This document shows positions 2,442-26,158 of a stretch of DNA of 26,623 nucleotides, piece after piece. The position numbers and the translations under genes are program-made. The notes under the pieces are model-generated. The model saw only the letters and a list, made by a program, of their open reading frames with translations. It was not told where the DNA came from and did not search any database. Source of the DNA: a virus; the IMG/VR virus record IMGVR_UViG_3300001472_000134, positions 1-26,623 of that record, one strand, 5' to 3'. Numbering within the stretch: the first letter of the stretch is position 1; each line of letters begins with the position of its first letter.

Positions 2442-3357
2442 TAAACACTCCCATTATTTGTTTTATCTTGTTGTCATTTAGATTTAGTATTGCACTCATG
2501 TACTCTACTAACTCCTCGTCTATTGTCATGTTCTTGAGGTTGAGTGTAGCTTCTGTACTTCGTTTTACTACTTTCTTATCAAGTAGTTCGGAGTTCTTAA
2601 TATTCGCTAAGTCAGCTACATCTCCTTCAATCTCATAAATTGTGTGATGAAAGTCAGACGCTATCATTTCACTTTCACTAGTTACCGTTCTTCTAAGAAG
2701 CTGAGGTAAATCGAAAGTGTCCCACGTCCAACTGTTATCATCATGTATAATTAGAAATCCTGTAGTAACCAAATCTCTGTGAAAAGATGTAGTCATAGGA
2801 CTTCCTGGATAGACTATATTTCTCTGCGTATTGGAGTGGCTATGTAGGTCACCCGCAAAAACTACAGGAAATGGACTAAATCTATCCAAGTCCACCTCTG
2901 GTGTAACATGAGGAGGTATCTCTCCTCTTACATGAGTATACAAAGGTTTGTTAGGATTGCATTTTTCTATTGAACCTTTCTTATGCAAGTCTGCATATGG
3001 GAGTAATGTCCCCCAATCATATTCAGTAGTTGTATCTACAATCTCAACTAAAGGGTTTACATCAGATGTGGCTCTCTTAAGATTAGAGAAGAAAGTCTTA
3101 TTTTTCTTTGTAGCTTCGTGGTTACCATCAAATATAATTGTTGGTATTTTTACTTCTTTAATAAAATCAAAGTATAAAGTAATCTCGTCCATCGAAGGCA
3201 CTCTATCAAATAAGTCTCCACCAATAATGTGCATACTAAAGTGTGGTTCTAATTCTTGAATTGCTTCAAAGAACAACTTATATCTAGTACATGCCCATGC
3301 CATTGGTACATTCTTCTGACCTAATTTAATATGCCAATCTGCTGTAAATAATATCAT
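2410..3357 (-). CDS. SbcD/Mre11-like nuclease (T4 gp47-like)
   Basis: This 315-aa calcineurin-like phosphoesterase is the nuclease partner of the SbcC-like ATPase. Metal-binding motifs are in order: DWH (Asp7, His9), GGDLFD (Asp48), GNHE (Asn79, His80) and GDLHSH (Asp170, His172, His174). The start chosen is the ATG at 3357, which overlaps the peroxiredoxin stop as ATGA. A longer reading to 3390 would lie inside the peroxiredoxin gene and lacks the expected N-terminus. Coupled translation of peroxiredoxin, SbcD and SbcC follows from these overlaps. Confidence 0.92.
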   Translation of the reverse strand: MILFTADWHIKLGQKNVPMAWACTRYKLFFEAIQELEPHFSMHIIGGDLFDRVPSMDEITLYFDFIKEVKIPTIIFDGNHEATKKNKTFFSNLKRATSDVNPLVEIVDTTTEYDWGTLLPYADLHKKGSIEKCNPNKPLYTHVRGEIPPHVTPEVDLDRFSPFPVVFAGDLHSHSNTQRNIVYPGSPMTTSFHRDLVTTGFLIIHDDNSWTWDTFDLPQLLRRTVTSESEMIASDFHHTIYEIEGDVADLANIKNSELLDKKVVKRSTEATLNLKNMTIDEELVEYMSAILNLNDNKIKQIMGVFNDYSKNATLG

Positions 3358-3860
3358 GCTACAAAGTCGTCCTCTGGTTCCCAAGCACACCCGGTGAGAC
3401 CACCAGATTTAAGTGCTTGTAAAGTTCTAAGGACTTCTTGGGCATTTCTGCCTGTATCTAGTGCATTAACTGATACATGTTGTATTACCCCTTCGGGGTC
3501 AATTATGTATGTTGCTCTAAGGCAAACATTCTCTTGCTTGTCAACTATTCCTAGTTTACTAGCGAGTACCAAACCACAGTCAGCAGCAAGAATATGTTTA
3601 ATATTTCTTAGTCTACCATCTGCTGTTTTCCAGGCAATCTTACAGAACTCATTATCTCCGCTGACTCCTATAACATCTGCATCATCTACTAATTTATCCA
3701 TGGCGGTTATTTCAGTAGGGCAAATGAAAGTAAAGTCTTTGGGGTAAAAATATACTACTGACCAATCAGTTGGTGTTAATATATCTATATCCATTATTGA
3801 GTTGTCTATGTCTACACCTTGAAGATGCATACTTGGAAATTGTTCTCCTACTCCTATCAT
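3354..3860 (-). CDS. 2-Cys peroxiredoxin (AhpC/TSA family)
   Basis: The 168-aa protein is a thioredoxin-fold peroxidase that reduces hydrogen peroxide and organic peroxides. It carries the peroxidatic site DFTFICPTE with Cys47 and Thr44, the supporting Arg115 in LRATYIIDPEG, and a C-terminal Cys158 in TGCAWEPEDDF placed where AhpC-type enzymes keep the resolving cysteine. A good AGGAG lies 8 nt before the ATG. Its stop overlaps the sbcD-like start, so an antioxidant enzyme is translated with the recombination nuclease. The phage glutaredoxin at 20930 is a possible reductant, which is inference. Confidence 0.92.
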   Translation of the reverse strand: MIGVGEQFPSMHLQGVDIDNSIMDIDILTPTDWSVVYFYPKDFTFICPTEITAMDKLVDDADVIGVSGDNEFCKIAWKTADGRLRNIKHILAADCGLVLASKLGIVDKQENVCLRATYIIDPEGVIQHVSVNALDTGRNAQEVLRTLQALKSGGLTGCAWEPEDDFVA

Positions 3861-18729: not shown

Positions 18730-19413
18730 TTATTTATAGATGTCTATTCCGTATTCTTTTAAATGTCGTAAACTACCTAAGTCATAAGTAAGTGAATGGC
18801 TCCAATACCCACCAATTTTTTGATAACCAAAGTACTTTGTCTCAAAATCTGTCATAGTAATAACAAATATCTGATAACACTTAGCACTATACTTATCGAC
18901 ATAGTTTGTGGCTTTGCTTATAGCTTCTTTTTTAATTATTGCCATAGCATTATCGTGGGCTGACCACACTCTTTCACCTATGTCAAAACTTTCTGCTACA
19001 CATTGTTCGGGTAGCATAGGTGTTTTATGCCTATATACTGTCATTTCGGACTTCGTAATTTTCTGTGGAACTCCGATATTATCAATCAAGTTGCGAATAA
19101 AGGTAGTAGACCTATACATACTTTTTGCGATTTCTGAGACTGTTTGTCCATTTAGGTATCTTTCTATTGCGTCTCTTTTCTCTAAGTCTGTGGCTTTCCT
19201 ACCTCTGTTCTGAGCTTTACGAGTAGCTCTATACTCCATTATATCTTTATGTTCAGCTAAAATACTTCCTAATCTTGTTGTATTATAACTAATATTAAGC
19301 ATCTCACAAGCAACTTTTTTTGTTATAGGCTCGTCGCCTTCTAACATTTCAATTACTCTATCAAGATTAGCTTCATCTAGTTTTTCATGTTCTCGTTTTC
19401 TAGTCTGTCTCAT
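18730..19413 (-). CDS. Helix-turn-helix protein of unknown target
   Basis: The 227-aa protein starts MRQTRKREHEKLDEANLDRV and has two likely HTH units: ITKKVACEMLNISYNTTRL (30-48) and a Hin-like TVSEIAKSMYRSTTFIRNLI (91-110). The C-terminal part (ESFDIGERVWSAHDNA, then a strand-rich end) looks like a separate binding or beta-barrel domain. The ATG at 19413 has GGGAAG just upstream and overlaps the DUF3310 stop by 14 nt, whereas a longer reading to 19437 has no such site. A transcription regulator is the simplest reading. Confidence 0.65.
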   Translation of the reverse strand: MRQTRKREHEKLDEANLDRVIEMLEGDEPITKKVACEMLNISYNTTRLGSILAEHKDIMEYRATRKAQNRGRKATDLEKRDAIERYLNGQTVSEIAKSMYRSTTFIRNLIDNIGVPQKITKSEMTVYRHKTPMLPEQCVAESFDIGERVWSAHDNAMAIIKKEAISKATNYVDKYSAKCYQIFVITMTDFETKYFGYQKIGGYWSHSLTYDLGSLRHLKEYGIDIYK

Positions 19414-19681
19414 CGCTTCCCAATAATATAATAGCATAGTGAATTACTTTTAATAAGTCTAATTCATTTTTGCCTTGTTTCTTTCCATAACGCTTTGCAT
19501 ATTTCATAATATTTCCTATACAAAACCCTTCTCCATGCCCTGAATCTATAATAAATTCAGTAGCTTGAATTTTATCTGTGCTGTAGTGTTGGTCATAAGT
19601 ATTATCAATGTAAGCCTGTAGCTTAATAAGCATTTTATCTTCATTGAATTTATACTTAGTTTTCTTACTAAATATCCCCAT
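19400..19681 (-). CDS. DUF3310 family protein
   Basis: The 93-aa protein ends in the typical DUF3310 block: QATEFIIDSGHGEGFCIGNI (39-58), then MKYAKRYGKKQGKNELDLLK and a hydrophobic helix. The family is common in phages, often next to nucleotide metabolism genes such as MazG, as here. Its biochemical role is not established. It overlaps MazG by 14 nt. Confidence 0.8.
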   Translation of the reverse strand: MGIFSKKTKYKFNEDKMLIKLQAYIDNTYDQHYSTDKIQATEFIIDSGHGEGFCIGNIMKYAKRYGKKQGKNELDLLKVIHYAIILLGSDETD

Positions 19682-20120
19682 CTGCTCTCACTTCAGAGCG
19701 TACTACCTCAAATCCATTTGGGTATCTGGCTTCTAATTTATTGATATTTTCGTCCATGACTTCATCAGGAGTAAATCCTAATGCTGTACAGCCTTGTACC
19801 CAATACCAAAGAACATCTCCTAACTCTCTTTTCATATGAAATATTTCATCATCAGTAAAGTTTGTGTCTGCTTGAAATAGTTTTTTCTTTACTACTTCTG
19901 CAAACTCTCCTGACTCTGCTAACATTCCTATTACTGAAGTTAGTAGTGTTGCCATGTGTATTTCTGCACCTCTTTCTACAGTTCCATCACTGCGTGTTAG
20001 ATGACTTGTAGTTCCTTCTAGTCTTAATATTCTGCTAGAAAGCCCTAATGTGTTCTTGCTCATTTCTGAGGTTGTTGTTGCTACGAATCTTGCGTAGTCA
20101 TTAAATTTTTCTGTTGTCAA
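19668..20120 (-). CDS. MazG-like nucleotide pyrophosphohydrolase
   Basis: The 150-aa protein has the all-alpha NTP-PPase metal site: ESGE (69-72, ExxE) and ELGD (99-102, ExxD), followed by VLWYWVQ and NKLEARYPNGF. Phage MazG proteins hydrolyse NTPs or alarmone-like nucleotides. Proposed roles are keeping host metabolism active and recycling nucleotides. The start is a TTG at 20120 with GGAG 8-11 nt before it; the nearest in-frame ATG would remove 19 residues. Confidence 0.85.
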   Translation of the reverse strand: MTTEKFNDYARFVATTTSEMSKNTLGLSSRILRLEGTTSHLTRSDGTVERGAEIHMATLLTSVIGMLAESGEFAEVVKKKLFQADTNFTDDEIFHMKRELGDVLWYWVQGCTALGFTPDEVMDENINKLEARYPNGFEVVRSEVRADGDI

Positions 20121-20298
20121 TTTCTTTCTCCACTATGTCTTGTATGTCTGCTAATTTATACCACAGTCCTGAATACATAGACTGTCTGCCGTCTTCGTAT
20201 ACTACTGTGTATCTTTTGTACCCATAAGGTCTATCGGAAAATATTCTAGCAAATGGATATATACCACCTACATCATACGCTCCTTCTAATAATCTCAT
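20101..20298 (-). CDS. Hypothetical protein (65 aa)
   Basis: A small soluble protein with many aromatic residues (GGIYPFARIFSDRPYGYKRY, then YSGLWYKLADIQDI). No motif is recognised. It overlaps the upstream stop as ATGA and the MazG start by 20 nt, so it belongs to the same message. Confidence 0.55.
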   Translation of the reverse strand: MRLLEGAYDVGGIYPFARIFSDRPYGYKRYTVVYEDGRQSMYSGLWYKLADIQDIVEKEIDNRKI

Positions 20299-20891
20299 CT
20301 TGTTATCCTACTTTCGTAATCAGCGTAATCTTCATTCCACCAATGTGGTTTATCTCTAAACTTCCAACTAGCAAAGGTAGCTTTGTCAAGATGATAGTAG
20401 TCTCTATAAGACTGTATAGGATTTTCATAATCCTTTAGTTCATCAGGCATAGCTAATCCAAATTCTGTAAAGCCTAGTCTTTTCATATGTACTGGCTCAG
20501 GTAGTTTGTTTACTACTTCATGTATGGACTTATGTTCTTTGCCATATCTGTATCTGTACTCGTCATTCAAAGCATTGCCGTAGCAGTGTGTCCACTCGTG
20601 ATTGTCTAGTGATGACCTTGCCCAAATAGTGCATGGGTGGTTATACATCATAGGTAAGTATGGTGTAATTGGTCTTTCTGCTGGGGGTAGATGTTTTATC
20701 TTTGCTTTTTCTTCATTGAGTACATCTCGTTCTTCTTTGTTGAGTGCACGAGGTACAAAACCCAAGAACTTGTCAATCCATATGCTAGTGCATAATATTT
20801 GAGCAACCTCTAGCGGCATCTTGACAATATGTTTGTCAACATGGTACTCGGCACACTTATCTAAATTTTTGTCTAAGTAAAATAAATTCAT
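20295..20891 (-). CDS. Conserved phage/bacterial protein, pyrimidine-dimer-glycosylase-like annotation
   Basis: The 198-aa protein starts MNLFYLDKNLDKCAEYHVDK, continues HIVKMPLEVAQILCT, and has NHPCTIWARSSLDN (about 89-102), TEFGLAMPDEL and IQSYRDYYHLDKATFASW. This pattern belongs to a widespread family that databases sometimes label pyrimidine dimer DNA glycosylase, on uncertain grounds. The ATG at 20891 is chosen because it lies 6 nt after a -10 box; a longer reading to 20906 would include promoter sequence. The message should be leaderless. Confidence 0.68.
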   Translation of the reverse strand: MNLFYLDKNLDKCAEYHVDKHIVKMPLEVAQILCTSIWIDKFLGFVPRALNKEERDVLNEEKAKIKHLPPAERPITPYLPMMYNHPCTIWARSSLDNHEWTHCYGNALNDEYRYRYGKEHKSIHEVVNKLPEPVHMKRLGFTEFGLAMPDELKDYENPIQSYRDYYHLDKATFASWKFRDKPHWWNEDYADYESRITR

Positions 20892-20897
20892 ACATAT

Positions 20898-20926
20898 ATT
20901 ATACAAAATTTTGAGAGCGGTGTCAA
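20898..20926 (-). promoter_or_regulatory. Sigma-70 promoter of the 198-aa gene, leaderless
   Basis: TTGACA (20926-20921), 17-bp spacer, TATAAT (20903-20898). ATG at 20891, 6 nt after the -10 box. Confidence 0.88.
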
Positions 20927-20929
20927 GTA

Positions 20930-21163
20930 TTATTTTATGATTTGTGAGAACTCAGTATAGCCTCCGATGCTCTCTTTGTCTATGAAGATTTGTGGGAATG
21001 TTCTGGCGGTGGGTACTCTTTCGAGTAGTTCGTGAAGTTCAAAATCTACACCTAATTTATATACTACATACTTATTAGATGATTCTTGAACCATTTGTTG
21101 TGCTTGTTTTACTGCCATGTCGCAGTAAGGACAGTTATCTTTACTATAAATTTCTATGTTCAT
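20930..21163 (-). CDS. Glutaredoxin
   Basis: The 77-aa protein has the dithiol site CPYC (Cys11-Cys14) after a first strand IEIYSKDN, the cis-Pro loop TFPQIFID (55-62) and the GSH-binding GGYTEF (67-72). It can reduce disulfides, including those of ribonucleotide reductase. The ATG at 21163 is chosen because it overlaps the cytochrome stop as ATGA and gives the expected length. Confidence 0.93.
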   Translation of the reverse strand: MNIEIYSKDNCPYCDMAVKQAQQMVQESSNKYVVYKLGVDFELHELLERVPTARTFPQIFIDKESIGGYTEFSQIIK

Positions 21164-21603
21164 TTCATTGTTTCCTCTATGAATTTTCCTATTGTTGCTA
21201 TTTCTTGTTCTGAGAGCATGCCTGCTTGAGCCCACATTGTAGAGCTCATTGCTCCAACCTGGCCTCTATTCTTATATGTAGTAAGCCTATCAACTATGTA
21301 ATCAGCTGATTGACCTGCTAACTTAGGAAATACTGCCATACCTTGTCCGTCTGGTCCATGGCATGCTGCACACCCTGCCCATAAACTTTTTATTGAACTG
21401 AATTCGTCTGCTGCTGCAAGAGCCTGCTTAGCTCTAAGTATATCTACTGATGTACCATTTAGTGCAACATATTCTTCGTAGCACTCACCTGTACATGAAT
21501 GTCCTCCACCATATCCACTATACTCTAAGTTAGGATAAATTTTGAGTGTAAAGAATCCAAAAATTACCGATACTCCTATCATTGTCATTCCTAATTCTCT
21601 CAT
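21160..21603 (-). CDS. Membrane-anchored c-type cytochrome (class I)
   Basis: The 147-aa protein has an N-terminal membrane anchor (about residues 5-23), a linker with CTGEC, and a small class I heme domain. Heme attachment is GCAACHGPDGQG (Cys78, Cys81, His82); VFPKLAGQSADYIVDRL and a Met-rich AMSSTMWAQ (Met119 or Met123 as axial ligand) follow, then the terminal helix. It resembles c4/c553 electron carriers and would act on the periplasmic side of the host inner membrane, matured by host machinery. The ATG at 21603 overlaps the 57-aa membrane gene stop as ATGA. A longer reading to 21723 is not supported. Confidence 0.9.
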   Translation of the reverse strand: MRELGMTMIGVSVIFGFFTLKIYPNLEYSGYGGGHSCTGECYEEYVALNGTSVDILRAKQALAAADEFSSIKSLWAGCAACHGPDGQGMAVFPKLAGQSADYIVDRLTTYKNRGQVGAMSSTMWAQAGMLSEQEIATIGKFIEETMK

Positions 21604-21773
21604 TCGAACGCTACTCCTATCATTAGCATAGATACACCCATAAATCCTAACACTAATACCTGAACTACAGACATTACTGCTATTTGTTTCATAGGGTGTA
21701 CCTCTACTACTTTTTCTACCCAAGCTTCACTTGGGGAAAGGTTTATTATTTGCAACACCTTTTCTTCTTTCAT
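21600..21773 (-). CDS. 57-aa single-span membrane protein coupled to cytochrome c
   Basis: It starts MKEEKVLQIINLSPSEAWVE, then has one hydrophobic span (about residues 30-55) ending VAFE. It begins directly after the stop of the candidate holin gene and its TGA overlaps the cytochrome ATG (ATGA), so the two are translated together. A cytochrome partner, a second holin or an unrelated membrane peptide are all possible. No family is recognised. Confidence 0.7.
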   Translation of the reverse strand: MKEEKVLQIINLSPSEAWVEKVVEVHPMKQIAVMSVVQVLVLGFMGVSMLMIGVAFE

Positions 21774-22151
21774 TTATTTACCATTAATTTTATCTTTTGC
21801 CGTTCCAGCATATAGTCCAAACCAGGCTGCTCCTGCTCCTACTACCACTGAAATCAATCCTGATTGTTCAAATGTTGGTTCTGGTAATTCCATAAACCAT
21901 ATTGTACACTTATATAATAATATAATATATACTGATAAAAACGCTCTAGGGAATATTCTCCATGCGTCTATCATGTTTGATAACCATATCCACTTCTGCC
22001 ATGGATTATCTGGTTCTCTTTCGTTCTCCATCTCCATAATCTTGGCTTTTAATTCACCAATTTCTGAAACCATTGCCATAAATTTATTAAGGTCAATCTC
22101 TACCTCGTTACGACTCATGTCGCCTTGAAATTGTTCACTAGGTTGTGCCAT
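21774..22151 (-). CDS. Candidate holin (two membrane spans)
   Basis: The 125-aa protein has an acidic N-terminus with a short coiled coil (VSEIGELKAKIMEMENERE, 28-46), a Trp-rich segment, and two membrane spans (about 70-88 and 98-117) with a charged end. This plan resembles marine phage proteins annotated as holins. The lysozyme lies in the same transcription unit, which supports a lysis role. Holin function is inferred. Confidence 0.55.
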   Translation of the reverse strand: MAQPSEQFQGDMSRNEVEIDLNKFMAMVSEIGELKAKIMEMENEREPDNPWQKWIWLSNMIDAWRIFPRAFLSVYIILLYKCTIWFMELPEPTFEQSGLISVVVGAGAAWFGLYAGTAKDKINGK

Positions 22152-22176
22152 TTCTATTTCCTATTTCTAAGTTTCC

Positions 22177-22467
22177 TTAGCCTGTGGTTATACTATCTTT
22201 TAACCACTTATACTCATCACTTTCCAAATCTATTGGTGCTACTAATGTAGCGTGAACATGATTAGTATTTTCTTTAAACTGACCTTCATTAACTGCATCT
22301 AATATCCAGTCAGCTGGGTCATCTTTTGTCATATTTTGTGTAAATATAACTTCAACTTTATATCCTACTAGTTTTTCCATTTGTCTTTTCTTTTGTTTCC
22401 TTTCGTTACTAGCGTGCATGGTTTTAACCCATTCATCGCTGTCTTTCTGCCATTGTTTTGAGTTCAT
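22177..22467 (-). CDS. Hypothetical protein (96 aa)
   Basis: The protein has a charged helix (KQWQKDSDEWVKTMHASNER) and a strand-rich half (YKVEVIFTQN, then VHATLVAPIDLESDEY). AGGA lies upstream of the ATG. It overlaps the end of the 46-aa coiled-coil gene by 35 nt. No family is recognised. Confidence 0.58.
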   Translation of the reverse strand: MNSKQWQKDSDEWVKTMHASNERKQKKRQMEKLVGYKVEVIFTQNMTKDDPADWILDAVNEGQFKENTNHVHATLVAPIDLESDEYKWLKDSITTG

Positions 22468-22573
22468 GTATTTCCTTTATGAGTTCATCTACTCTTTTGT
22501 AGGACTCTTGTAGTTGTTTTTGTACTTCTTTTAGGTTTTGTTTTAGTACTATGACTTCATCAAGTTCCATCAT
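22433..22573 (-). CDS. 46-aa coiled-coil peptide
   Basis: The frame reads MMELDEVIVLKQNLKEVQKQ and continues with heptads to ELKTMAERQR. Nearly all residues are helical and regularly hydrophobic at a/d-like positions, as in a coiled coil. Its ATG overlaps the upstream stop as ATGA. It fills what would otherwise be a 100-nt gap. It may be a lysis or adaptor peptide; the role is unknown. Confidence 0.6.
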   Translation of the reverse strand: MMELDEVIVLKQNLKEVQKQLQESYKRVDELIKEIHELKTMAERQR

Positions 22574-22782
22574 ATTTGTTTAATACCTAGTACGAAGTTT
22601 TCTGCGCAATCTTCTGCCCAGCTTTCACTATGTGTTGGATAATATTCTGTTAGTCCTGGCTTATCCCCATTCTTCATGTGAACACCCCAGCTATCATTTA
22701 TTCTGTGTTTTACAACATGAGCGACTCTATCGCCTTCCATGTATGTGGAGTATACTTTATACTCATTGTTTGTGTTTTGCAT
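22570..22782 (-). CDS. Hypothetical protein (70 aa)
   Basis: The protein has a strand-rich first half (EYKVYSTYMEGDRVAHVV, RINDSWGVHM) and ends with an acidic helix. AAAGGA precedes the ATG. It overlaps the RHH-like gene by 20 nt. No family is recognised. Confidence 0.58.
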   Translation of the reverse strand: MQNTNNEYKVYSTYMEGDRVAHVVKHRINDSWGVHMKNGDKPGLTEYYPTHSESWAEDCAENFVLGIKQI

Positions 22783-22918
22783 CTTTTTCCTTTAGTAGTG
22801 TGAAGGCTTCAGTTATATACTCATCAATAGTCATACCTCTTTCGGTTGCTTGTTGATTCATAGCGTCCCACATCTCTTGTGAGATTTGATACTCTTTGCC
22901 TTCGAATTTAATTTGCAA
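22763..22918 (-). CDS. 51-aa ribbon-helix-helix-like protein, TTG start
   Basis: The frame from TTG at 22918 gives a first strand MQIKFEGKEYQIS followed by two helices (QEMWDAMNQQATERGMT and IDEYITEAFTLLKEK), the plan of small RHH repressors of the Arc/MetJ type. GAGG lies 10 nt upstream and the start overlaps the lysozyme end. An ATG start would remove the strand that contacts DNA in this family. A regulator of the late genes is possible; no operator was identified. Confidence 0.6.
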   Translation of the reverse strand: MQIKFEGKEYQISQEMWDAMNQQATERGMTIDEYITEAFTLLKEKDAKHKQ

Positions 22919-23333
22919 ACAGGTCTGCCTCAGCTTGTCTTCTTCTTGTAAGTCCTTCTAAAACTTTGCCACCTGCTTTATTCCATCTCATCATTTGAGC
23001 TGGTACACCTGCATAATCTCCTGCGTTTAATACTTTCAAAAGCGTACTTGCTTTTAAGTTTCCAACTCCTAGATTATAAACCCATGATACCATAGCATCA
23101 AACTGGTTTTGGTTTAATTCAACAGTTACTAAGCCAGTAATATAACTTTCATATTCATTTAGTTCTTCTACTAGCATTTCATTTGCTGTATTTTCTGAAA
23201 TAACCATACCTTGTTGCACATCTTTAGTGTGCCCGTAGCCTATTGTCCATACGCCTGCAGCGCATTGATAAGCATTTAATTCTAGACCTTCAAAATGTTT
23301 AATCATTTCTAGTCCTTTTGTTCCTATATTCAT
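22908..23333 (-). CDS. Phage lysozyme (glycoside hydrolase 24)
   Basis: The 141-aa endolysin has the GH24 E-8-C/D-5-T arrangement: Glu15 in HFEG, Cys24 in YQCAAG and Thr30 in WTIGYGHT. The C-terminal helices include WVYNLGVGNLKASTLL and the final GLTRRRQAEADLF. It cleaves peptidoglycan. There is no signal peptide with this start (ATG at 23333, AGGA upstream), so export should rely on a holin. Longer readings to 23444 belong to another gene's frame overlap. Confidence 0.93.
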   Translation of the reverse strand: MNIGTKGLEMIKHFEGLELNAYQCAAGVWTIGYGHTKDVQQGMVISENTANEMLVEELNEYESYITGLVTVELNQNQFDAMVSWVYNLGVGNLKASTLLKVLNAGDYAGVPAQMMRWNKAGGKVLEGLTRRRQAEADLFAN

Positions 23334-23340
23334 TTGTGTC

Positions 23341-23646
23341 CTATATGTAGAAGCTTTCGCCACAGCCGCAGCGTCCACTCTCTTGATTATTTGTGATAAG
23401 AAACTCTTCATTAAGTCCATTAACCACCCAATCCAATTTTGCATCTGTTAGATACTCCTTGCTGTATATATCAATTACTAATATATCTTGATATATCATA
23501 TCAGTTAAGTCAGGACTCTCGGCATAACTTAACTCATATGTATATCCACCACAACCTCCACCCGATACTTTAAGGCGAGCGCCCCAAGCAGAGCTTGAGG
23601 CGACTCTTTCTTTTAACATTGCTAAGGCATTGTCTGTTATCTTCAT
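23341..23646 (-). CDS. A-type Fe-S carrier (IscA/ErpA/HesB family)
   Basis: The 101-aa protein has the three conserved cysteines of the family: Cys32 in GGGCGGYTY and Cys93/Cys95 in GRCGCGESF. These bind or pass iron-sulfur clusters. The start is ATG at 23646, which overlaps the stop of the 52-aa membrane gene as ATGA; a longer reading to 23712 would read that gene in another frame. It is placed between hsp20 and lysozyme, next to redox genes. It could supply clusters to host or phage proteins. Confidence 0.92.
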   Translation of the reverse strand: MKITDNALAMLKERVASSSAWGARLKVSGGGCGGYTYELSYAESPDLTDMIYQDILVIDIYSKEYLTDAKLDWVVNGLNEEFLITNNQESGRCGCGESFYI

Positions 23647-23801
23647 AATATTGGTAGCATCGCTAGATACATTGTTCCAAAGCATACTGTAAACATAATA
23701 ATTACCTCGCACAACTCCCCATCTGGGCAGTATTTGTCTTTAACTTCTTGAATCGCTTGCAACTTGGCATAACGATTAAAGAATCGTTTTGCATATTGCA
23801 T
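23643..23801 (-). CDS. 52-aa single-span membrane protein coupled to iscA-like gene
   Basis: It starts MQYAKRFFNRYAKLQAIQEV, has a middle with two cysteines (YCPDGELCE) and ends in a hydrophobic span (about residues 33-52). AGGAG lies 9 nt before the ATG and overlaps the hsp20 stop, and the TGA overlaps the IscA ATG. No family is recognised. The paired cysteines could bind metal. Confidence 0.72.
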   Translation of the reverse strand: MQYAKRFFNRYAKLQAIQEVKDKYCPDGELCEVIIMFTVCFGTMYLAMLPIL

Positions 23802-23811
23802 AGAGTTTCTC

Positions 23812-24243
23812 CTAGCCTATTGTAATCGTCTTAGGCTTTTCTTCATCAGGTGTATTTACCTGTAGGTTAATAACTAACATACCATTTTTGAATCCCGCGT
23901 CGGATATCTCTACCCAATCGCCCAAAGTGAAAATTCTGCTAAAGGTTTTACCACTTAGTCCTTTATGGACATAGCGTTCCTCTCCAGAATCAAGACCTTG
24001 CTTTTCTGTTCCTTCTATAGTAAGTTTATTTTTGTGTTGCTTGATGTCGATATCATCTTTTGACCAACCTGGCAGAGCCATTTCAATACGGTAGCCCGTA
24101 TCTCCAACTGCTACTAAGTTGTATCTTGGATAGTTAGTCAAGGGTGAACTCTCGTTCCTCCTAGTTAATTCCTTGTTCAAGCGATCAAATCCGACAAATA
24201 ATTTGTCGAAGTCGTTAAAGTTTAATGCTGTTAATCCAGTCAT
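23812..24243 (-). CDS. Small heat shock protein (Hsp20/IbpA-like)
   Basis: The 143-aa protein has an alpha-crystallin domain (about 38-130) with YRIEMALPGWSKDDIDI (51-67), the GMLVINL motif (121-127) and a C-terminal ITI (140-142) that links dimers. It prevents aggregation of unfolded proteins. Hsp20 is common in marine T4-like phages. Expression should be controlled by the 220-nt structured leader at 24244-24467. AGGAG lies upstream of the ATG. Confidence 0.93.
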   Translation of the reverse strand: MTGLTALNFNDFDKLFVGFDRLNKELTRRNESSPLTNYPRYNLVAVGDTGYRIEMALPGWSKDDIDIKQHKNKLTIEGTEKQGLDSGEERYVHKGLSGKTFSRIFTLGDWVEISDAGFKNGMLVINLQVNTPDEEKPKTITIG

Positions 24244-24467
24244 TGGTTTCTCCTATATTCGGCTCCTTTCGGCAGCCTCTATGAGTCCCTTTCGGCAACT
24301 CGGTTATTATAATACTATGTCTAACAAAACCCGACCACTGGTGGAAGTGGTGCTCCTAACCTCGCCCTCGGAACGCTTATGTTTCCTACTCGTGCCAGAC
24401 ATATCGTGGGTTTTGATTTGGAAGTCCCCACAACTCCGCATAAAATCATGTAAAATATAAAATTTTA
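24244..24467 (-). promoter_or_regulatory. Structured 5' leader RNA ahead of hsp20
   Basis: Reading from about 24467 to the ATG. Helix A: 24415-24408 with 24332-24325 (8 bp, CAAAACCC/GGGUUUUG). Helix B: 24403-24397 with 24322-24316 (7 bp). Their order (A5', B5', A3', B3') makes a pseudoknot. Hairpins inside are CCACU/AGUGG (24350-24335) and GGAA/UUCC (24386-24370). Two tandem hairpins follow at 24301-24283 and 24277-24261, each with a GAAA loop and an upstream bulged G (GCCGAAAGG). Part of helix A can instead pair GUGGG (24431-24427) with CCCAC (24410-24406). This could be a riboswitch, thermosensor or stable RNA; I recognise no known class. Confidence 0.68.
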
Positions 24468-24474
24468 CTCTATT

Positions 24475-25019: not shown

Positions 25020-25048
25020 TTGACATTGGAACTTAATTTTGTTATAAT
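25020..25048 (+). promoter_or_regulatory. Rightward sigma-70 promoter, leaderless
   Basis: TTGACA (25020-25025), 17-bp spacer, TATAAT (25043-25048), preceded by AGTTC. ATG at 25055 begins 6 nt after the -10 box. It is the only strong promoter on the plus strand. Confidence 0.9.
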
Positions 25049-25054
25049 ACACTC

Positions 25055-25228
25055 ATGGAAAATAATAATAAATGGACGGATAAGCAAGTTCGCGAACTAA
25101 AGAAGCTGTATGGAAATCATTCAGCCGCTGAACTCGCAATACACTTCAACAAATCGCCTTCAGCGATTACTTCCAAAGTTCATTATCTAAGAAAGCGAGG
25201 TTGGTCTTTCGATACTACGCGTAGATGA
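25055..25228 (+). CDS. 57-aa Myb/SANT-like protein
   Basis: It starts MENNNKWTDKQVRELKKLYG, continues NHSAAELAIHFNKSPSAITS and ends KVHYLRKRGWSFDTTRR. This is one complete Myb-like module close to those in the 13382 and 17764 genes. No leader is expected from the promoter. Its TGA overlaps the bS21 ATG (ATGA), so it is translated with bS21. It could regulate the divergent promoter, but this is inferred. Confidence 0.78.
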   Translation: MENNNKWTDKQVRELKKLYGNHSAAELAIHFNKSPSAITSKVHYLRKRGWSFDTTRR

Positions 25229-25452
25229 GGAGAGGAGAGCAACAACAACCTAATTTTGACCGAATGCTACGCACTTTTCGAAATAAGATGAAAAGAAGTG
25301 GCAAACTTGAAAAACTACGAGAGAAAGAATACTATGAGAAACCTGCACAGAAGAAACAGCGTCTCAAAAATGCTGCAAAGCGGAGAGAATCTCGTAGACA
25401 ACGCGAAGAAATGTTAAGACCTCAGCGAGGACACTTCTCCAAGCGCAGATAA
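25225..25452 (+). CDS. rpsU: Ribosomal protein bS21
   Basis: The 75-aa, strongly basic protein has the bS21 pattern: FDRMLRTFRNKMKRSG (11-26), LREKEYYEKP (31-40) and the basic helix KKQRLKNAAKRRESRR (43-58). In cells, bS21 sits on the 30S subunit near the anti-Shine-Dalgarno and affects start-codon choice. Marine phages, including some of SAR11, are known to encode it. Here it is coupled to a Myb-like gene on the only rightward transcript. It has no Shine-Dalgarno of its own. Confidence 0.88.
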   Translation: MRRGEQQQPNFDRMLRTFRNKMKRSGKLEKLREKEYYEKPAQKKQRLKNAAKRRESRRQREEMLRPQRGHFSKRR

Positions 25453-25561
25453 TTACTTCTTCCTACTTAAAAAATACACTTTTTTATGTTAACTCAAACC
25501 TTCACAGTCAATTCATTCGATGACATACTCAAAAATATTACTAGCTATTTTGTTAAACTTG

Positions 25562-25570
25562 TGGTATAAT
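25562..25570 (+). promoter_or_regulatory. Possible extended -10 promoter
   Basis: TGGTATAAT fits an extended -10 element. No good -35 is present at the usual distance. RNA from here would include the hairpins at 25640-25720. Confidence 0.35.
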
Positions 25571-25639
25571 ATATACAATAATTGATAATAACATTGCTAA
25601 TTACTATTCATTCAATTCAACAAAACATAAGTTAAGAGC

Positions 25640-25680
25640 ATCGCTTGAGCGAGACGCTCCCCTAGGAGCGGTGAAGCGAT
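25640..25680. other. Strong nested hairpin with alternative pairing
   Basis: ATCGCTT (25640-25646) pairs with AAGCGAT (25674-25680), and inside it CGCTCC (25655-25660) pairs with GGAGCG (25665-25670) around CCTA. GAGCG (25647-25651) can instead pair with CGCTC (25655-25659), excluding the inner stem. An outer CATCG/CGATG pairing (25639-25643 with 25684-25688) is also possible. Confidence 0.65.
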
Positions 25681-25694
25681 AACCGATGTCTCTC

Positions 25695-25720
25695 TTAATC
25701 GTTGTTGCTAATGCGATTAA
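25695..25720. other. Second hairpin in the noncoding region
   Basis: TTAATCG (25695-25701) and CGATTAA (25714-25720) form a 7-bp stem with a 12-nt loop, directly after the nested hairpin. Confidence 0.5.
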
Positions 25721-25762
25721 AGCAATCGATTATACCACGATTCAAACTCCACCTCAACGGGG

Positions 25763-25811
25763 TTATCAACATCTAAACTAATTTACTACAAAACCATCAA
25801 ATTTATCCACT
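25763..25811 (+). other. Two DnaA-box-like 9-mers
   Basis: TTATCAACA (25763-25771) and TTATCCACT (25803-25811) each differ at one position from TTATNCACA. A third, TTATCCAGA, is near 26042. Such sites arise by chance in AT-rich DNA, so origin function is only a suggestion. Confidence 0.25.
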
Positions 25812-25928
25812 TATAAATCCCAATAACTTACGCCAATTCAAAATTTTTTAAGTCGTTTTTACTCAACTGACTGCGTTAAATTCTACCTATACCTGTGCAA
25901 ATTTCCCCTAGACTATTTAATTTTAGCG

Positions 25929-25950
25929 ACCCCGCTACGGTTTAGTTAAG
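25929..25950 (+). repeat. 22-bp direct repeat, copy 1
   Basis: The 22-mer ACCCCGCTACGG plus TTTAGTTAAG is identical to the copy at 25975-25996 (period 46 nt). A TAGCG/CGCTA hairpin (25924-25937) overlaps it. Confidence 0.8.
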
Positions 25951-25953
25951 GTT

Positions 25954-25984
25954 GTAGCGTTGAGGGTTAGAACAACCCCGCTAC
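25954..25984. other. Hairpin between the repeats
   Basis: GTAGCG (25954-25959) pairs with CGCTAC (25979-25984) and GGGTT (25964-25968) with AACCC (25974-25978), giving 11 base pairs with a 4-nt bulge and 5-nt loop. The 3' arm is part of repeat copy 2. Confidence 0.55.
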
Positions 25985-25996
25985 GGTTTAGTTAAG
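25975..25996 (+). repeat. 22-bp direct repeat, copy 2
   Basis: Identical to 25929-25950. It includes the stop codon of the 27-aa leftward peptide. Confidence 0.8.
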
Positions 25997-26075
25997 AACA
26001 GCTGTCTAATATAAACATTAGTACAGCTATCCAAAACATCATTATCCAGAATTTGCCTTCTGTCCAATTATTCAT
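25992..26075 (-). CDS. 27-aa membrane micro-peptide
   Basis: It reads MNNWTEGKFWIMMFWIAVLM then FILDSCS: a short polar start and one membrane span. Its ATG overlaps the stop of the next micro-gene as ATGA. The size makes it uncertain, but the coupling with two upstream frames supports it. Confidence 0.5.
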   Translation of the reverse strand: MNNWTEGKFWIMMFWIAVLMFILDSCS

Positions 26076-26158
26076 GACTTAGGCGTTCCGTCAAAGAACA
26101 AAAAGTATATGCCAGTTATGATAAACATATACAGTATTAAATCAAATGCAATTTCCAT
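26072..26158 (-). CDS. 28-aa membrane micro-peptide
   Basis: It reads MEIAFDLILYMFIITGIYFL then FFDGTPKS: one membrane span with a short polar end. Its ATG overlaps the stop of the 85-aa gene as TAATG. The Shine-Dalgarno is weak. Confidence 0.5.
   Translation of the reverse strand: MEIAFDLILYMFIITGIYFLFFDGTPKS

Follow-up and report, generated by a model that had tools for sequence, protein, structure and literature searches.

A conserved pseudoknotted leader RNA ahead of hsp20 in marine T5-like phages: a candidate class of cis-regulatory RNA

Introduction

Is the leader between a strong promoter and the hsp20 gene of a marine phage a structured RNA, and if so, what might such an RNA do? The question arose in a window of viral DNA (the whole 26,623-nucleotide stretch analysed here, positions 1 to 26,623 of IMG/VR record IMGVR_UViG_3300001472_000134), for which the first-pass annotation described a structured leader of no known class and named, beforehand, compensatory change in homologous leaders as the check. 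All evidence presented below is computational and comes from uncultured contigs.

Results

Genomic setting and distribution of the leader

The first-pass annotation gave no strand; hsp20 sets it as minus. The plus-strand fold of the same interval (24244-24467) was not significant (z 0.59). The leader begins directly after a perfect sigma-70 promoter (Table 1), and a sigma-70 promoter precedes it in 53 of 53 representative loci. Further 12/12 sigma-70 promoters were noticed on the minus strand at 20926, 18247, 17129, 14921, 9851 and 4934, each heading a gene group. The genes expected downstream (hsp20, an iscA-like gene, lysozyme and cytochrome c) were confirmed by Pfam, as was the glutaredoxin of the operon. 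As a side observation, redox-flavoured phage genes (cytochrome c, glutaredoxin and a peroxiredoxin-like gene; 20930-21723 and 3354-3860) occur near the Fe-S carrier.

Table 1. Features of the leader and its surroundings (own-versus-swapped shuffles ignore relatedness, and z values are not probabilities)
Feature	Position	Strand	Remarks
Sigma-70 promoter TTGACA-17-TATAAT with TG extended -10	24503-24475	-	12/12 match
hsp20 leader RNA	24467-24244	-	~225 nt; RNA is the reverse complement of the interval
5'-terminal AU-rich hairpin by the predicted transcription start	24450..24468	-	own-versus-swapped z 6.8, 49 distinct sequences
P1 hairpin GGAGU/ACUUC, 7-nt loop UGUGGGG	24421..24437	-	z 8.4; 94% of cells paired
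PK1 pseudoknot: P1 loop GUGGG 24431-24427 with CCCAC 24410-24406	24405..24432	-	own-versus-swapped z 10.7 (1-nt register shifts between sequences tolerated)
P2 5' strand UAUGUCUGGCA	24393..24403	-	90.9% of P2 cells paired
P3 hairpin GGAA/UUCC	24368..24390	-	100% of cells paired; z 7.6
G-rich joining strand GGGCGAGGUUAGGAG, P3 to P4	24353..24367	-	GGG and AGGAG invariant, spacer length variable
P4 hairpin ACCACU/AGUGGU, conserved loop U(U)CCACC	24334..24351	-	97.6% of cells paired; z 10.5
Conserved CGGG joining P4 to P2	24327..24333	-	alignment
P2 3' strand UGUUAGACAUA	24316..24326	-	same P2 pair counts as 5' strand
TH1, first twin hairpin: bulged purine and CC-GNRA-GG	24283..24301	-	z 10.4; 92.3% of cells paired
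TH2, second twin hairpin	24261..24277	-	z 11.6; 90.1% of cells paired
Shine-Dalgarno (SD) AGGAG of hsp20	24250..24254	-	direct reading
hsp20, small heat-shock protein	23812..24243	-	Pfam PF00011, E 5.8e-15; phrog_432
iscA-like A-type Fe-S carrier, downstream gene	23341..23712	-	PF01521
Phage lysozyme, downstream gene	22908..23444	-	PF00959, E 6e-52
Type-2 leader	L337:2270-2510, L344, L362, L389:850-1075, L403:1785-2000		ahead of hsp20

An Hsp20 protein scan of IMG/VR yielded 75 loci, whose upstream regions represent 47 distinct sequences; the order promoter, leader, twin hairpins, SD and hsp20 is constant among these, except in two truncated contigs. A scan with the pattern of the conserved core yielded 80 viral stretches, and hsp20 lay next to the core in 73 of the 74 loci checked locally. 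From an alignment of 53 distinct cores we built a covariance model, R1, whose E-values are rough. In the phage records searched, R1 found one good copy of the core per record and no core elsewhere. The 41 matches of a looser DNA pattern in bacterial genome contigs, none accompanied by an R1 match, were attributed to chance; a search of cultured phages for the leader gave no convincing match, and the element is absent from cyanophage hsp20 leaders. The DNA polymerase encoded in the window is nearest to those of T5-like phages (about 44% identity), and the window also encodes a T5 D5-like regulator; on these grounds we take the carriers to be uncultured marine T5-like phages.

The fold is conserved by compensatory change

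Folding the leader of the window as a single sequence gave no significant result (z -0.99); one sequence proves nothing, and the evidence for a fold is comparative. The own-versus-swapped test asks whether the pairing of a strand to its own partner exceeds its pairing to the partner taken from a different phage. Column counts over the core showed that 94.5% of cells were paired, with 119 two-sided changes versus 33 in shuffles, and in a sliding control the pairing fell to 33-51%. For the twin hairpins the corresponding values were 91.3% of cells and 133 two-sided changes versus 35, and pairing fell to 21-47% on sliding. Many G-U pairs occur in P1, P2 and TH1, as expected of an RNA transcribed from the minus strand but not of DNA or of the opposite strand. 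These comparisons support the leader as a structured RNA conserved by compensatory change in P1, PK1, P3, P4, TH1 and TH2, and the check set beforehand was thus passed, with 53 distinct cores. As its shape has been preserved by evolution, the RNA almost certainly has some function.

Comparison with the Rfam 15 families at the gathering score, as suggested in the first-pass annotation, gave no match for the window, the core (at E up to 10), the relatives or the type-2 leaders described below; two weak matches at relaxed E lay on the opposite strand, far below threshold. The proposal of a structured leader outside the known classes was therefore borne out, both by compensatory change and by the Rfam result.

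A pseudoknot followed by a three-helix junction

Two-sided changes were found in three of the five pairs of P1, whose loop pairs with a strand further downstream to form PK1. The pair types of PK1 include GUGGG/CCCAC, GCGGG/CCCGC, GUAAGG/CCUUAC, GAUGG/CCAUC, GUCGG/CCGAC, GGUAG/CUACC and more, and so many independent types are hard to account for without real pairing. Loop 3 of the pseudoknot (24420-24411; CAAAUCAAAA in the window) is A-rich. A pseudoknot had been predicted in the leader, but with a different topology: CAAAACCC (24415-24408) was paired with GGGUUUUG (24332-24325) in an 8-bp helix, and the PK1 helix was regarded as a competing arm. The strongly covarying PK1 is the true pseudoknot with P1, whereas the 8-bp helix has no two-sided cells, pairs at the level of shuffles (own-versus-swapped z 0.5) and is lost in distant members. 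A switch between PK1 and the CAAAACCC/GGGUUUUG helix is possible in the close relatives of the window, but not throughout the group, as the distant members no longer have that helix.

P2, earlier described as a 7-bp helix, is real, but extends to about 11 bp. Eight of its 11 pairs vary on one side only, mostly by G-C/G-U swaps, which is again consistent with an RNA read from the minus strand. The two inner hairpins described earlier are P3 and P4, and both covary; in P4, five of the six pairs show two-sided change. The flanks of P3, AGUA (24390-24387) and GA (24369-24368), are invariant in the alignment and possibly adopt the three-dimensional form of a sarcin-ricin/bulged-G motif. The G-rich joining strand might form a two-layer G-quadruplex and the P4 loop UUCCACC a T-loop-like fold; these are further leads, suggested by the order of the bases. 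Covariation cannot test these three leads, because the bases concerned hardly vary.

P4 scores as terminator-like, but CGGG stands between the stem and the U-run and the stem lies in the conserved core, and it was rejected as a terminator. A small open reading frame from a nearly invariant AUG in P2 (MSGTS...) was also rejected: its length ranges from 7 to more than 50 aa, its frames differ with the variable length of the P3 loop, and an SD was not seen ahead of it. No tRNA or tmRNA was found.

Twin hairpins and an exposed Shine-Dalgarno sequence

After P2, an AU-rich linker of variable length leads to TH1. The twin hairpins with their common core GCCGAAAGG just ahead of the SD, already noted in the first-pass annotation, are present and covary; GCCGAAAGG occurs 3 times in the window versus 0.04 expected. 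The SD is not part of any conserved helix and is mostly free within the local 3' module (median paired probability 0.29 over 52 leaders); folding of the whole leader without pseudoknots gave a wider spread of SD exposure, from 0.03 to 0.96. We found no conserved alternative structure in the leaders that would hide the SD or form a terminator. Since no conserved helix holds the SD, control would act through bound factors or stability, and not through the melting of an SD stem.

The twin hairpins travel with hsp20, the core need not

At L337, L344 and L362, which carry more distant relatives of hsp20, and at L389 and L403, the promoter, the twin hairpins and hsp20 are present with a different leader. 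This type-2 leader consists of GAGUUGGCACUCGUUAAAAUGCCCCUCUUGUAUCC followed by other helices, some of them covarying, and it matched neither R1 nor Rfam. It contains an invariant GAGUUGGCACUC, a covarying hairpin GCCUAC/GUAGGC (with the variants GCCUAU/AUAGGC and ACCUAC/GUAGGU) and a likely long-range pairing UAUCCA/UGGAUA, and is pseudoknot-like and unrelated to the core.

The reverse situation was found in L219 (826-1170): this contig retains the core but lacks hsp20, iscA and the twin hairpins, and lysozyme comes in their place. Ahead of lysozyme, it has another GC-rich hairpin (GGAGUGGCA/UGCCACUCC) and a gene for a 28-aa membrane peptide, and its 8.5 kb yielded no hsp20. Taken together, the type-2 leaders and L219 indicate that the twin hairpins go with hsp20 and that the core need not, the core-without-hsp20 side of this modularity being represented by the one contig. 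The retention of the core in L219 is easier to reconcile with a role at the level of the operon, or an independent one, than with a role specific to hsp20.

Discussion

The best reading of these results is that the leader represents a new class of structured cis-regulatory RNA, unlike any Rfam family. We consider it moderately likely that the leader acts in cis on the hsp20(-iscA-lysozyme-cytochrome c) operon of marine T5-like phages through two separable modules. By comparative analysis, one is a compact core, in which an H-type pseudoknot (P1/PK1) is followed by a P2-closed junction with P3, P4 and long invariant joining strands, and the other is a pair of bulged GNRA hairpins immediately before the exposed SD. 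The core would fold immediately on transcription from the strong sigma-70 promoter, and the folded core may bind RNA polymerase, another protein or a small molecule. The twin hairpins may belong functionally to hsp20 and determine how its translation starts, how stable the mRNA is, or both; in the simplest case they would be an operator bound by a protein or a stabiliser of the 5' end.

Two observations weigh against a cis-regulatory role. The usual switch mechanisms are not visible, given that no SD-hiding or terminator alternative structure was found, and the persistence of the core in L219 would also fit a free-standing RNA. The core could thus be a stable trans-acting phage RNA, cleaved from the 5' end of the transcript within the AU-rich linker before TH1, with the twin hairpins then shielding the 5' end that cleavage leaves on the hsp20 mRNA. 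The compact fold with its long invariant unpaired stretches and the variable length of the linker would agree with such a role, but the core has no separate promoter or terminator of its own and is always found at the 5' end of one operon, and we regard this explanation as unlikely. Retention of the core when the first gene changes would be accounted for by processive antitermination, in which the nascent leader would bind RNA polymerase and allow readthrough of pauses or terminators in the operon. The analogy is with the put RNAs of phage HK022, which are ~70 nt long, form two stem-loops and lie just downstream of the promoter (PMC9378689). The phage leader likewise starts right behind a strong promoter and opens a long series of co-directional genes; its two stem-loops would be the twin hairpins, but these come after a ~125-nt pseudoknotted core, at the SD. 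Since no terminator-like site that would be overridden was seen in the hsp20 operon (19000-24243, minus strand) and separate 12/12 promoters precede gene groups further downstream, we find antitermination improbable.

The two remaining alternatives draw on the identity of the first gene. E. coli IbpA acts as a repressor on the 5' UTR of its own mRNA, to which it binds (PMC10474464), and by analogy the phage Hsp20 might bind the twin hairpins, which travel with its gene, and repress its own translation. The positions of IbpA Tyr34 and Arg97 are conserved in the aligned phage proteins, but the equivalent of Arg93, which is needed for self-repression and is reported not to be replaceable even by Lys (PMC10474464), is Lys in all nine of the aligned proteins, and Lys98 is not kept. 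The Lys at the Arg93 position makes a model of the IbpA type less likely, and we give autoregulation only a slim chance. A ROSE-type RNA thermometer, as at many small heat-shock protein genes, is suggested by the gene context and by the presence of hairpins beside the SD in a structured 5' UTR, as in the ROSE thermometers of ibpA/hsp20. In those, the SD is paired with U(U/C)GCU in the 3'-proximal hairpin (PMC3669281). In the phage leader, by contrast, the SD lies outside the conserved hairpins, where it is mostly free, without a conserved U(U/C)GCU/SD pairing; U(U/C)GCU occurs upstream of the SD in just 3 of 52 leaders, within the P2 region there, and the covarying pairs are far from the SD. 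We judge a thermometer of this type to be very improbable.

The closest analogue by context of the proposed cis-regulatory leader is manA RNA (RF01745), a large multi-stem orphan cis-regulatory candidate from the 5' UTRs of genes of marine metagenomes and phages, ibpA chaperone genes among them (PMC2864571); the leader likewise lies directly upstream of hsp20. The two are nevertheless different RNAs in consensus: RF01745 gave no match above 55.2 bits in the window, L204, L200, L232 and four phage records of the group, while the positive control P-TIM40 scored 141.7 bits, and R1 found nothing convincing in the P-TIM40 manA RNA. That RNA lies upstream of talC in this cultured cyanophage (L397:1501-1695).

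The preQ1 and SAM-II riboswitches contain an H-type pseudoknot with an A-rich third loop, a feature that the core shares. The leader differs from them in that it does not match their Rfam families, a three-helix junction follows the pseudoknot, and the SD is not in the pseudoknot.

More broadly, the two leader types could represent a plug-in system, in which a constant hsp20 translation module (the twin bulged GNRA hairpins and the SD) would be fed by interchangeable unrelated pseudoknotted domains, each of them a new ligand- or protein-sensing RNA class. We regard this idea as doubtful; under it, the phage would couple the expression of its chaperone and lysis genes to the condition of the host cell. 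If a metabolite proved to be the ligand of the core, the RNA would form a riboswitch class carried by phages. Few structured regulatory RNAs are known from marine phages, and to these the family described here adds one whose fold is modelled exactly and of which over 50 natural variants are available. The occurrence of two unrelated leaders at one gene is a clean natural experiment on the role of the leader, and a leader that is short, strongly conserved and has its SD exposed lends itself to easy probing and reporter tests in laboratory bacteria.

The DNA on the other side of the hsp20 promoter has some features of its own. Divergent from hsp20, a 12/12 promoter on the plus strand (25020-25452) precedes genes for a small SANT/helix-turn-helix-like protein and a basic protein, and L389 and L390 encode similar small proteins close to the type-2 leader. 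Beyond them, 25500-26130 is a long non-coding stretch with a direct repeat, CCCCGCTACGGTTTAGTTAAG, at about 25930 and 25976 and a block rich in inverted repeats near 25637-25695, and it could contain another structured RNA.
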